A stretch of 64,000 nt of DNA from Gammaproteobacteria bacterium (GTDB lineage Bacteria; Pseudomonadota; Gammaproteobacteria; Eutrophobiales; Eutrophobiaceae). The first letter of the stretch is position 1. The number at the start of each line of letters is the position of its first letter. The DNA lies in the NCBI GenBank assembly GCA_012103475.1, contig WLWS01000001.1, positions 496,001 through 560,000 on the forward strand, in the 5' to 3' direction. Position numbers and translations under genes: made by a program. This document shows, one piece after another, positions 29,176 through 55,198 of the stretch. Under the pieces are notes generated by a model. It had not been told where the DNA came from, ran no database searches, and was given only the letters and a program-made list of their open reading frames with translations.

Positions 29176-30603
29176 TTATATCAAAGACTTATCTGCGATC
29201 CAGTTTCCGTGGAAACCATAAGGCACTCTTACCGGCAAATGAACCCGGGCCAGAGCTTCCTGGTTCAGATCAAGAGCATCCAGAATTATTAATTCACTGG
29301 TATTACTGGTTTCATCGTAAACAAAGGTCATTAAGTAACCGTCGTCTTCTGAAGTCCCTGATTGTTTTGGCACAAACACCGGCTCGCCGCCGTGACGACC
29401 TTTGCCAAAATTGAACATGGAAGACTCCCCGGTCTTCATATCCTGTTTGTAAACTCCCGGGAAAGACCTGTCTCCGACCGCAAGAGTGTACGCGAATTGA
29501 TAGGGTTTGGAATTCAGCTCCGGATGACAGCGAGGAAACTCCTGAGTACGCTCATCAATTATCTGCTCAGATACATTTTGAGTTTTCGGATTTACTGTCC
29601 AGCGGTCAAGCCGGGGGAGACTGTCACCGAACGGTCCGTTGGTATCTGCGGCAAACATACGATCATAACGGCATATATCAACGACAACATTGCCACTTTC
29701 ATCTTCATAGGCGTTCACGGGATGAAAAGCATAACATTGAGACACATTACACCAGATAATGTCTTCTGCCCTACCATCTCTTGGTAACAAGCCCAACCTG
29801 GCCTGATGTTTTTCGTCCCATCTGAAGGGGAAATCGGAACCCAGACCCAGAGCGACAAAACTCAGCGTCACGGGAAAATCAAAAATAATAGCGTAGTGCT
29901 CTGTAAGGGCCATATCGTGAACCATGCTCATCCCTGACAGACGAATATCAAGACTTTTGACCAGTTTGGCGTCGGCTCCCATCACGACATATTTAACGTG
30001 ATCCCGATAGTTTGCCCAGTCGTAACTTATCGCATGCAGCTCACCCTTATCAGGATCGTACTTTGGATGTGCACTATAAGCACCCCAGCCAGAGTCATGC
30101 CCGATTGTATCCAGCTCGTAATTCAGCTCGGAAGGCGCTGTTCCTGATTCAACCAGAGCCCAGACCCGCCCTGCATGAGCAATTACATTGGTATTCGGCC
30201 CCCCGGTTAACATCCTTCCGTTGACCGCTTCGCCCAGGGCTTCAACTATACGAGTACTGCGTACCCATCGATTCCGGTACCAGTCAGCCCGACCTTCTTC
30301 AAGACGAATACCGTGAACCATGCCATCACCGATAAACCAGTGATGTGAGGATGGATTGACTTCCGAAAAAGGGTTAGGCCCGTTGCGAAGAAAGCGCCCG
30401 CTTAGCTCCTCAGGTATCGTACCGCTGACTTTCATTTCTGTGACAGTCGATTCAATCTCCACCGGTCCGAAATTACCGGACAAATACAGGCCATCTTCAT
30501 AGAATGTTGTCAGATCCTCTTCATTCACCTGGCTGCAACCGTTAAGTAACGAGGTAAGCGGCAGAGCAAGACCAGACTTCAAAAGCGTTCTTCGCGTTGT
30601 CAC
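29176..30603 (-). CDS. Carotenoid/lignostilbene cleavage oxygenase (RPE65 family), Tat-like lipoprotein
   Basis: 475 residues of the beta-propeller Fe(II) carotenoid oxygenase family, which cleaves C=C double bonds of carotenoids, stilbenes or isoeugenol-type compounds. Seen: RFLRNGPNPFSEV and HHWFIGDGMVHGIRL near the N-terminus, VHDMALTEHYAIIFDFP, and a final FHGNW; the iron-binding His residues are expected in these. The N-terminus has a twin-arginine start, TTRRTLLKSGLALPLTSL, ending in LLNGC with a lipobox-like Cys, so it is probably a Tat-exported lipoprotein. GTG 30603 has AGGAG upstream. It ends an operon with an EthD-like, a CoA ligase and a CMD gene. Confidence 0.9.
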   Translation of the reverse strand: MTTRRTLLKSGLALPLTSLLNGCSQVNEEDLTTFYEDGLYLSGNFGPVEIESTVTEMKVSGTIPEELSGRFLRNGPNPFSEVNPSSHHWFIGDGMVHGIRLEEGRADWYRNRWVRSTRIVEALGEAVNGRMLTGGPNTNVIAHAGRVWALVESGTAPSELNYELDTIGHDSGWGAYSAHPKYDPDKGELHAISYDWANYRDHVKYVVMGADAKLVKSLDIRLSGMSMVHDMALTEHYAIIFDFPVTLSFVALGLGSDFPFRWDEKHQARLGLLPRDGRAEDIIWCNVSQCYAFHPVNAYEDESGNVVVDICRYDRMFAADTNGPFGDSLPRLDRWTVNPKTQNVSEQIIDERTQEFPRCHPELNSKPYQFAYTLAVGDRSFPGVYKQDMKTGESSMFNFGKGRHGGEPVFVPKQSGTSEDDGYLMTFVYDETSNTSELIILDALDLNQEALARVHLPVRVPYGFHGNWIADKSLI

Positions 30604-30637: not shown

Positions 30638-31345
30638 TCAGGTATCCGCTAGAAGCTCTTCAGTCAACATCGGGTAATGGATATTACTGCCAGTAAAAGT
30701 CGGAAATTGCTCGAAATCTGCGCGCGATTTATGCCGCACAGGAGAATTGAGAGCGGCTTCCAGAGCGCTTACGCTATCAAATATCAACCTGTTCCTCTGC
30801 ATATATTCGACCCGGTCCCAACCTAGCGTATCGCGCCAATCCACACGTGTGTAGACCTCTATCTCTCGCAGGCCTTCGAAGGTTCTCAGTATCTGTGGAT
30901 GATGATCGAGATAGAAATTCAGCCAGGTATTAAAATCTTCAGCCTGTCCCGGATAGTGAACCAGATAACTGCATAAGGTTTCAGTGGAGTTTGAAGCTGC
31001 TCTAGCACTGGTCAGGGTGTAATCTCGCGCAGTCATCGCCTGATGGCTGATTCGCAAATCTGGAATGCCATTCCACAGCTTCGAATCACCAATCGCCTGC
31101 AGATTACCCATATCGCAAATTGGTCTCTCCAGAGATTCAATATTTTTGTAATAGAGTTGCAATGCAAGACTGGGCGAAGCACCATCATCGGTGTAATAAT
31201 CACGTGCTTTGGTGGGAAGAAAAAATAAAGCACGACTCAAGTCCGGAGTTGCTCGAACGATGTTCTTTATTTGTTCAATTTTTTCAGAGGCAAGCTGTGC
31301 AGCGGGATCGCTACTCTGAACGGTTACGAAATGTACAAAGGACAT
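30638..31345 (-). CDS. EthD-like dimeric alpha-beta barrel protein
   Basis: A 235-residue soluble protein. The order of strands and short motifs such as FVHFVTVQSSDP, YKNIESLERPICDMGNLQAI and FNTWLNFYLDHHPQILRTFEG suggests two ferredoxin-like barrel domains of the EthD type, which often act as accessory or stabilising proteins in the breakdown of aromatic and xenobiotic compounds. ATG 31345 has AGGAAG nearby. It lies between the carotenoid oxygenase and CoA ligase genes in the same direction with about 35-40 base gaps, consistent with one pathway. The specific role is unknown. Confidence 0.7.
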   Translation of the reverse strand: MSFVHFVTVQSSDPAAQLASEKIEQIKNIVRATPDLSRALFFLPTKARDYYTDDGASPSLALQLYYKNIESLERPICDMGNLQAIGDSKLWNGIPDLRISHQAMTARDYTLTSARAASNSTETLCSYLVHYPGQAEDFNTWLNFYLDHHPQILRTFEGLREIEVYTRVDWRDTLGWDRVEYMQRNRLIFDSVSALEAALNSPVRHKSRADFEQFPTFTGSNIHYPMLTEELLADT

Positions 31346-31384: not shown

Positions 31385-32920
31385 TTATTTTAGTAAGCGC
31401 GCTTCCAGTTCGTGGCGTTGAACCTTACCAGTGGTTGACCTTGGTAATTCGCTTGCCTCGATAAAAATAATGTCTTTTGGCTGCTTGAAACTGGCAAGGT
31501 TCTGTTTACAAGCATGGAGAATCTCCGCTTTATTTAAATCAGGATCAGCTTTAACGACAAAAACCACCGGTACCTCACTCCATTTGGGATCTGATTTACG
31601 TACAACAACCGCTTCGCTGACTCTGGAATCTTCAAGCACCACCTGTTCTATCTCAGCCGGATAGATATTCTCACCACCAGATTTAATCATGTATTTAACC
31701 CGGTCGACATAATCCAGACTACCATCCTCATTACGGCGCATAACATCGCCCATATGAAACCAGCCGCCACGAAAATCCTCTCTGTTGGTAGCATCGGCAT
31801 TCCAGTACCCGCTAAACACGGTTGGCCCCCGTACGGCTACTTCACCAGGCTCGCCTATGGCCACTTCCCTGTCGTTATTATCAACAAGGCGTACTTCGCA
31901 AAAAGCACTTTGCCGTTTGGACAGATTGTCAGGAACAACACCAACCGGAATAGTTGCACCCGTCGCCGGCGGCAGCCCGGTTTCTGTTGACCCGAAAGTA
32001 TTTAAATACGGCGCGTTAAGAGCCCGGGTAGCCGCGGCAATATCTTCGCGAGGGACAAGATCAGCCATCGCACCGCATAGTTCGATTTTCTTAATCCTGG
32101 CCTTACGCGCCTCGACAGCAGCAGCAAACTCGCCAACCGTACCTGGTAGAAGAACGAAGTAACGCATGGGAACAGTCTCAATTAGATCGATCAAAACATC
32201 AGGCTGATAGCCATCAACTATATGAACTGTGCCCCCGCGAAGCAGGATTGCGATTGACTGATCAGTTGAAGCCATGTGGTAAAACGGTGCCCAGGCGACA
32301 AAATTATCAGCGACTGGAATTTGCATTTCAGAAGCAAAACAGGCTCCTCTGGCAATCATCGCGCGATGACTGATCAAAGCGCCCTTGGGTAACCCAGTAG
32401 TGCCACTGGTGTATAGAATAACGAGGCCATCCTCAGGATCTACCGGTAAGCCCGGATAAAGATCAGAGCTGGCAGCAAGGCAATCTTCATAATTCTTGCC
32501 AATACTAACGCTCTGGTGCTCAGGCAGATCGAGACCTTCCAGATTTTCCGAAAATTCCTGCTGGCAAATGATTAGCTTCGGTTCAACCAGACTCGCACAA
32601 TGCGCCAGTTCCCTGTCACTGAGTCGCCAGTTCAAAGCAGCCACAATCAACCCGGCCTTGGCAGCAGCCAGCTCCACTTCAACATACTCCGTACAATTAC
32701 GCGCTAACATGGCCACCCGATCACCGTGCTGAAGACCGCTTTCAATCAAGTAATTAGCCAGCCGGTTGGTTCTGTTCTCCAATTCGGTATAGCTGATGCT
32801 TTTGCCAGCTTCAATAACTGCCGGATGTTCGGGATTAACTGCAACGCGGGAGTGGAACAAACTACCAACCGAAGACTGTCCAGCAGAAATGACAGATTGT
32901 GGAGGAACATAATCTTGCAT
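31385..32920 (-). CDS. AMP-forming acyl-CoA ligase (feruloyl/long-chain type)
   Basis: 511 residues from ATG 32920; an earlier possible start at 33010 would overlap the upstream gene. The adenylation motif LVILYTSGTTGLPKGALISH (about 155-175), the Tyr/Gly motif NTFGSTETG, the YMIKSGGENIYPAEIE hinge and a C-terminal RSTTGKVQRHEL with the conserved Lys mark the ANL superfamily. It joins coenzyme A to a carboxylic acid with ATP. Neighbours (carotenoid/lignostilbene oxygenase and EthD-like) suggest an aromatic or apocarotenoid acid as substrate. Confidence 0.9.
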   Translation of the reverse strand: MQDYVPPQSVISAGQSSVGSLFHSRVAVNPEHPAVIEAGKSISYTELENRTNRLANYLIESGLQHGDRVAMLARNCTEYVEVELAAAKAGLIVAALNWRLSDRELAHCASLVEPKLIICQQEFSENLEGLDLPEHQSVSIGKNYEDCLAASSDLYPGLPVDPEDGLVILYTSGTTGLPKGALISHRAMIARGACFASEMQIPVADNFVAWAPFYHMASTDQSIAILLRGGTVHIVDGYQPDVLIDLIETVPMRYFVLLPGTVGEFAAAVEARKARIKKIELCGAMADLVPREDIAAATRALNAPYLNTFGSTETGLPPATGATIPVGVVPDNLSKRQSAFCEVRLVDNNDREVAIGEPGEVAVRGPTVFSGYWNADATNREDFRGGWFHMGDVMRRNEDGSLDYVDRVKYMIKSGGENIYPAEIEQVVLEDSRVSEAVVVRKSDPKWSEVPVVFVVKADPDLNKAEILHACKQNLASFKQPKDIIFIEASELPRSTTGKVQRHELEARLLK

Positions 32921-32966: not shown

Positions 32967-34058
32967 TTATCCCAATGTATTTGCGGCAGACGGAAACTGA
33001 TTGATACCAAACTCCTCTCGAAAGTCGCGACTCGGTTCCAGTATCATTGGCTCGACGTTAATACCAATACCATTTGCCGCGCGATCGACCAGACTAAAGA
33101 CTGCAGCCGTGATTGCAGCAGAAACCAGAGCGTCTTCTCCCATGCTTTCAACTAGCACTCGTCTTGTAGAGTTTAATGCGGACAAATCATTACCTAGAAT
33201 TGCGGTAGCGAAATCCAATAGTTCTTCTCCATACGCAAGACCACTGTCTTCAGTTGGGACGAAAATGCCAGCCAGATTAATTTTCAGATTCATTGCTTTG
33301 CCACTCTCACGGAGGACATGGGTGTGCCAGGTAGTTCAGTAAAAACACTGGTTGAGTGCGGATATCTTCGCAGCAACCAGTTCCATTTGTGGTCTTGACA
33401 AAGCCCTAAGCGAACTACGAGTCAGATCGAAGATCGTTTCTGCGGAAAAATACTCCATATCGATGACAGTATTCAGACGCCGCGCCTCTTCCGGCACCAG
33501 ACTTAAGGAACGCACAATGTTGGGTGCCGGTTCACTACCAAACAGCTCAAGCGCAATTTCTCCTCCCTCGGGAGCACTGGGAATACTGGCAGTAAAAAAC
33601 CCTTCCTGTCTGGCAACAGCAGGTCGTTGCATTGAGGGTGCCTTATCCTCCTGCGGTTCAGCTAGTTGCCGGCTAGACACGCCGATACCGCGTGCAAAAA
33701 CATCAAGATGAGCCAGTCTGGCTACAAGGCCAACTATTTCAACGTAAGCTCCTTCACTGAGTCCTTCAACCTGTACCTTTTTGCAGTAATCGCGATCAAT
33801 ACCGATACCGGCTAGCGCCACATCCCGTGCCAGACGACGTGCCACCTCGGGCAAGTCAGCAGATTCCGCCAGAGTTTCATCACCAACACTTTCCTGCATT
33901 CCAGCCTCAACGCGTGCCTTACGCGCCTCCGCGGCTATAGCCCTTCTCTGTGTTGCTGTACCCCATGTACCGGGACGTGCAAATGAAAGCAGCTCATCTT
34001 CATGTAAAGACTCAAAAGATGAGGGAATCGGGAGATTGGTATCTGAATAAAGGCTCAT
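32967..34058 (-). CDS. AhpD/carboxymuconolactone-decarboxylase-like protein, candidate selenoprotein (in-frame TGA at 33338)
   Basis: Translation from ATG 34058 meets TGA at codon 241, but the frame then stays open to 32967, and the text across it fits one CMD protein: LSRPQMELVAAKISALNQCFY, then the TGA, then TTWHTHVLRESGK. In the AhpD/CMD family this is the C-x-x-C...H redox motif, here C238-F-Y-TGA241-T-T-W-H. Read as selenocysteine it gives a full-length 363-residue double-CMD protein. The first half (about 50-120) is a degenerate CMD domain. Such enzymes reduce peroxides or protein disulfides, or act as decarboxylases. A hairpin at 33299-33329 could serve as SECIS. It heads the carotenoid oxygenase operon. 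A nonsense mutation or sequence error remains possible. Confidence 0.7.
33299..33329 (-). promoter_or_regulatory. Candidate bacterial SECIS hairpin in the CMD gene
   Basis: On the minus strand, bases 7-37 after the TGA can fold into a long imperfect stem: nine Watson-Crick pairs and one G-U, broken by three single mismatches, with apical loop UCCUC closed by G-C. If the top pair opens, the loop begins G-U, as in known bacterial elements. The loop lies about 19-25 bases after UGA, within the range reported for bacterial SECIS. Folding was done by hand; thermodynamic support is not tested. Confidence 0.45.
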
Positions 34059-54565: not shown

Positions 54566-55198
54566 ATGTTTAAGAAAGTTTTGTTAATTTCAGGCAGTCT
54601 GTTGCTTGTTCTTGCCGGCAGTGCTTATCTGCTTCGTGCGCAACTCTGGGAGGTTGTTGTCGATCACTTCTCAAAAGATACCTTTATTGCAGCTGACACC
54701 GACGACTTTGATCCTGGTCTGACATTGGGTTCGAAATTCCCCACCATCAAAGCCCTCTACAAGGGAGAAGAAGTAAACGATATACGAAATTTTGCTCGCG
54801 ACAAGGGTATGTTGTTTGTGGCCAATCGCTCGGCCGACTGGTGACCATACTGCATAGCGCAATTCGTGCAATTGCAAGAACATCTGCCCAGCTTCCACGC
54901 AGCAGGTTTGTCTGTGGTTGGGTTGACCTATGATAAGCCAGAGTTGCAGGAGAAATTCATTGAAGCACGTGGAATCGAGTTTCCCTTTTTCTCTGACATA
55001 GATGCGGTAAGCATGAAATCATTAGGCATACTGGATCAAAACTACCCACCGGGCGATGAAAACTACGGGATACCTCACCCAGGTATTTTCATACTGAACC
55101 CGGAAATGGAAATCGTTGGAAAAATATTTGTGAATGGTTATGAGAAACGCGTAAACGCCGAAGCTGTTCTAAGCTACGCCTTAAACCAGCTAAATTAG
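54566..55198 (+). CDS. Membrane-anchored redoxin (AhpC/TSA-like), candidate selenoprotein (in-frame TGA at 54842)
   Basis: This frame begins with a signal-anchor (FKKVLLISGSLLLVLAGSAY), then TLGSKFPTIKALYKG and LFVANRSADW, the strand before the active site in the peroxiredoxin-like family. Next is TGA (codon 93), then PYCIAQFVQLQEHLPSF and VVGLTYDKPELQEKFIEA, DENYGIPHPGIFIL to TAA 55198. Homologues have SxDWCPxC, so TGA replaces the first, attacking Cys, giving Sec-Pro-Tyr-Cys (U93, C96) in a 210-residue protein. It would reduce peroxides or disulfides at the outer face of the inner membrane. A hairpin at 54859-54875 could be a SECIS. A nonsense change or error cannot be excluded. Confidence 0.72.
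54859..54875 (+). promoter_or_regulatory. Candidate bacterial SECIS hairpin in the redoxin gene
   Basis: A perfect six-base stem GCAATT / AATTGC (54859-54864 and 54870-54875) encloses loop CGTGC. The loop has G at its second position, the base conserved in bacterial SECIS loops, and lies 21-25 bases after the UGA. Distance and loop fit the published bacterial consensus. It also encodes conserved residues, so the constraint is dual. Found by eye; no folding program was run. Confidence 0.5.

Follow-up and report, generated by a model that had tools for sequence, protein, structure and literature searches.

An in-frame TGA in a divergent member of the AhpD-related selenoprotein family NF041238, followed by a conserved and covarying SECIS hairpin

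The window, that is, the whole stretch of 64,000 nucleotides of gammaproteobacterial DNA analysed here, contains on its minus strand a reading frame of 363 amino acids that runs from an ATG at 34058 to a TAA at 32969-32967, provided that an internal TGA is joined (Table 1). This TGA is the sole internal stop of the frame (34058-32970), and standard ORF calling accordingly yields two pieces, 34058-33336 and 33293-32967, the second starting at an ATG at 33293. The junction reads QCFY-U-TTWHTHVLR, with U at the second position of the AhpD/CMD motif C-x-x-C...H. Translation thus agrees with the initial annotation, which had described two adjacent frames in the same phase, separated solely by a TGA at the second Cys of this motif. 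Downstream on the same strand, genes for an acyl-CoA ligase, an EthD-like protein and an RPE65-type oxygenase follow in this order, with gaps of 46, 39 and 34 nt.

Table 1. Features of the selenoprotein locus and its downstream neighbours.
Feature	Position	Strand	Evidence
Selenoprotein gene, AhpD_rel_CFYUT family, 363 aa	32967..34058	-	NF041238 match, translation, AlphaFold2
UGA codon read as selenocysteine (predicted), residue 241, second position of CFYU	33336..33338	-	TGA in relatives; selABCD
bSECIS hairpin (predicted) UGUCCUC-CGUGA-GAG(U)GGCA, 7 pairs	33299..33318	-	Codon constraint, stem pairing, compensatory changes
AMP-binding acyl-CoA ligase	31385..32920	-	Pfam AMP-binding 1.9e-68; ATG at 32920
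EthD-like protein	30638..31345	-	TIGR02118 29.8 bits, just under cut-off 30.5
Carotenoid/lignostilbene-type oxygenase (RPE65 family)	29176..30603	-	PF03055 3.2e-117; NF052295 533 bits, below cut-off 675

The joined protein matches the NCBIfam model NF041238 (AhpD_rel_CFYUT, 'alkylhydroperoxidase-related (seleno)protein') with 292.2 bits against a cut-off of 175, residues 13-356 aligning with positions 3-356 of the 357 in the model, and it carries the CFYUT signature with UGA at U (QCFYUTTWH). The family dates back to the Sargasso Sea study of 2005, which introduced 'hypothetical protein 1' as a selenoprotein family not described before, its CXXU motif being accompanied by a predicted SECIS (PMC1088965); in a review of 2026, NF041238 appears under the name 'AhpD-related protein (hypothetical protein 1, Sargasso Sea metagenome)' with the motif CxxU (PMC13188914). 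Since the family is already catalogued, the window gene represents a divergent new member rather than a new kind of selenoprotein. It shares with the other members the full-length match, the CxxU within CFYUT, the position of the UGA and the downstream SECIS, but lacks the N-terminal CxLCxxRK found in most of them and differs in its operon partners. AhpD-like 1 and 2, two selenoproteins from ocean metagenomes, likewise have CxxU within the AhpD/CMD superfamily, but were placed under COG2128 and pfam02627 (PMC2398784), whereas the NF041238 type is listed apart (PMC13188914).

The C-terminal half of the protein (about residues 160-340) is an AhpD/CMD peroxidase-related domain, with profile matches to 6k40 (an AhpD with CVYC; 3.5e-16), 2oyo and 2prr. 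The structures closest in fold to an AlphaFold2 model built from 43 sequences (mean pLDDT 94.6) include 2prr and the debrominase Bmp8 (6ohi and 6ohj), with weak E-values (~0.1) and a probability of 1.0. Both the profile match to 6k40 and the AhpD/CMD fold neighbours of the model place the protein in the CMD/AhpD superfamily. With the AhpD/peroxidase-related CMD proteins (TIGR01926; 6k40, 2prr, 2oyo) it has in common the C-terminal domain and the arrangement C-x-x-(C/U)-x-x-x-H; unlike these proteins of ~190 aa, which use Cys, it comprises 363 aa and would use Sec, and its score of 38.8 lies under the TIGR01926 cut-off of 81.8. The description of the protein as 'double-CMD' in the initial annotation holds in part: Pfam finds a single CMD domain, slightly under the gathering cut-off (PF02627, 20.8 bits versus 23), whereas comparison of the N- and C-terminal halves as profiles gives moderate support (P = 2.4e-4). 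In sister proteins, an N-terminal CxLC (C-x-x-C) aligns loosely with the C-terminal CFYU (P about 0.007). Because of this alignment and the resemblance between the halves, the N-terminal half is likely, judging from sequence, to be a decayed second CMD half left by an old duplication.

When used alone as a query against genome contigs, the window protein found no match, whereas an alignment query succeeded: the search of named genomes returned 80 loci (the best relatives), and a family search over 96 genomes returned 19 copies, window included, with some records shared between the two sets. TGA occupies the Sec codon in 80/80 of the best named relatives and in all over-cut-off family matches in the relatives' genomes, its carriers spanning Alpha-, Gamma- and Deltaproteobacteria, Myxococcota and one Acidobacteriota bin. 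No version with Cys at this codon occurs among the best 80 relatives; Cys at this position is found in more distant single-domain relatives, for example the CVYC of 6k40. The presence of TGA at one codon across independent genomes excludes a sequencing error and a private nonsense mutation, in line with the earlier view that random nonsense would hardly explain it, and comparison shows a UGA that is predicted to be recoded as selenocysteine.

The 4.19-Mb draft genome of the host contains selC (68.8 bits), selB (399.7), selA (579.1) and selD (275.8), all over cut-off and grouped in one cluster of ~5 kb (C6:28605 to C6:33116), so that the search for selB and selC proposed in the initial annotation recovers both, together with selA and selD, in the same genome. 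The selD gene (C6:32193-33116 in G000, and likewise in L048) lies within a frame of 743 aa that has an N-terminal oxidoreductase-like part and resembles the Ndh-SelD fusions described in PMC2398784. The host genome harbours four copies of the NF041238 family, each with exactly one TGA (4/4), one of which (C6:26624-27685) is located ~0.9 kb from the sel cluster. Of these, the window copy has diverged most in the genome search (283.5 bits versus 402-448), and it sits on a long branch (0.93) in the family tree; because of both, its function may have changed or relaxed. The N-terminal CxxC is absent from the window protein, the copy of genome G009 and the rest of a clade of 30 rows with support of 99/100, while L063 (incomplete) and L095, L108 and L109 (which show CxLC) fall in the CxxC clade. 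Elsewhere in the family, genome G001 carries a tandem pair of copies on one strand, separated by ~210 nt (L051, 6931-9486).

The predicted SECIS hairpin begins 18 nt past the UGA and ends at 37 nt; its loop of 5 nt (33311-33307) begins with the 25th nucleotide after the UGA (24 nt between), and a U is bulged at 33303. The bSECIS model (PMC13188914) asks for a loop of 3-9 nt with G at one of its first two positions, a stem of 4-16 bp and a distance of 16-37 nt between UGA and loop. The window hairpin has this geometry, with a CGUGA loop whose second nucleotide is G, a 7-bp stem with one bulge and a spacing of 24 nt. The energy criterion of the same model is at or below -7.5 kcal/mol (PMC13188914); the window hairpin alone reaches -5.7 kcal/mol, and the predicted optimum of the region, -8.2, is another fold. 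When the 48 nt that follow the UGA were folded at minimum energy in 99 sequences and compared with synonymous recodings, the mean z was -0.56 and the window gave z = +0.37; there was no general signal, and fold stability was rejected as evidence for the SECIS. Given the modest energy of the hairpin, the argument rests on comparison rather than on stability. The 'long imperfect hairpin' of the initial annotation holds only in part: the predicted fold is no stabler than recodings, and it is a shorter hairpin (33318-33299) that is conserved. At gathering scores, Rfam has no match in the window.

For the comparison, codon usage was analysed at the eighth to eleventh codons past the UGA in 89 distinct sequences, five out-of-frame members of the folding set being left out and expectations being taken from each gene's own usage. 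Leu is encoded by CTC in 87/89 (23 expected), Arg by CGT in 73/84 (13 expected; CGG in the remaining 11), Ala by GCG in all 37 cases (14 expected) and Ser by AGC in 54/78 (19.5 expected; AGT in the remaining 24). This synonymous constraint peaks right at the hairpin apex, where the family consensus is CUC-CG(U/G)G(A/C)-GAG with G at the second loop position. In a subgroup of loci (L050, L053, L056, L058 and L060), AGT (Ser) replaces CGT (Arg) at the apex and the loop, AGUUU or AGUAU, keeps G then U, the nucleotides being conserved though the amino acid differs. Across 73 sequences, 92% of cells at the seven stem positions are paired, versus 30-50% in slid controls, and in the 12 sequences with the bulged U, window copy included, pairing is 100% versus 31-71%. 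We counted 36 compensatory cells in 5 pairs, against 12.5 (mean) and 2.9 in shuffles, with 0/500 shuffles reaching the observed value; kinship among the sequences inflates such counts, and the slid controls therefore matter too. Compared with the other 11 bulged sequences, two adjacent pairs of the window copy show compensated changes, U-A to G-C and G-C to U-A. Comparison thus shows, for the family as a whole, conservation of the putative SECIS hairpin and covariation of its stem, the latter having been named in the initial annotation as a check.

A second TGA at a redox-active Cys in the window, also pointed out previously, is located on the plus strand at 54842-54844, within a peroxiredoxin-like frame (54566-55195; AhpC/TSA 1.8e-18) that has an N-terminal hydrophobic segment and reads SADW-U-PYC (W-U-P-Y-C) at the junction. 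The TGA is kept in two relatives, G001 (65% identity) and G033 (51%). The frame is a second selenoprotein candidate; a number of Prx-like selenoproteins with UxxC were known before.

The 46-nt gap makes it likely that the acyl-CoA ligase shares a transcript with the selenoprotein gene. A ligase beside family members is not conserved in relatives, and no recurrent operon partner was found in more than 9 of the relatives' loci; since the neighbours have scattered homologues and none of the partners is common to most loci, operon partners were rejected as a clue to function. Judged by eye, the sequences of the relatives' neighbours likewise suggest catabolic proteins (enoyl-CoA hydratase-, luciferase-like monooxygenase- and UbiD-like). 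Searches against phage families gave no match. We consider it doubtful, albeit conceivable, that the subclade without the N-terminal CxLC represents a distinct Sec enzyme, which here would serve carotenoid/stilbene-type cleavage together with the oxygenase, the EthD-like protein and the ligase.

Collectively, the NF041238 match, the selABCD genes, the TGA in all relatives and the conserved SECIS support the proposal of a candidate selenoprotein, and we are highly confident that the gene encodes an NF041238 selenoprotein, in which SECIS/SelB-dependent recoding would produce a Cys238-Sec241-His245 redox site, most likely of the AhpD/peroxidase type. During translation, the hairpin would recruit SelB with Sec-tRNA, and the UGA would be read as Sec, so that Cys238 and Sec241 form a redox pair, joined by His245, within the C-terminal AhpD/CMD domain (C-x-x-U-x-x-x-H). 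The product would most likely be a thiol/selenol redox enzyme related to AhpD and peroxidase-type proteins. By analogy with the superfamily, Sec241 would attack the substrate, Cys238 would resolve the intermediate and His245 would join the proton relay, probably resulting in the reduction of an organic peroxide or a similar electrophile, organic peroxide being the most likely substrate class.

The main alternative to organic-peroxide reduction retains the selenoprotein and assigns to it the reductive removal of a halogen or other leaving group, the reaction type of the debrominase Bmp8, which has the CMD fold. Selenolates make good nucleophiles for dehalogenation, as exemplified by deiodinases, Bmp8 is among the top fold matches and the neighbouring genes are catabolic; however, the E-values of the fold matches are weak, the peroxidase-related 2prr ranks level and no genes for halogenated compounds were identified nearby, and we regard dehalogenation as improbable. 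Real termination at the UGA, yielding a functional short protein and a separate downstream ORF from the ATG at 33293, is very improbable: an in-frame ATG does follow the UGA, but the active-site Cys/Sec, His245 and the remaining CMD fold straddle it, the NF041238 model aligns across it and the SECIS would be left purposeless. The splitting of an ordinary Cys-containing AhpD-like gene by a nonsense mutation or assembly error, although consistent with the two called frames and the divergence of the window copy, is a negligible prospect, being refuted by the conservation of the TGA in independent genomes and opposed by its presence in all own-genome paralogues, by conservation that runs on beyond it and by the codon constraint at the SECIS.

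Ordinary annotation would split this selenoprotein gene into two false genes, and a single gene read through the TGA is supported here by comparison. Our analysis adds to the NF041238 family a divergent lineage devoid of the N-terminal CxxC and provides for the family a predicted SECIS supported by covariation.
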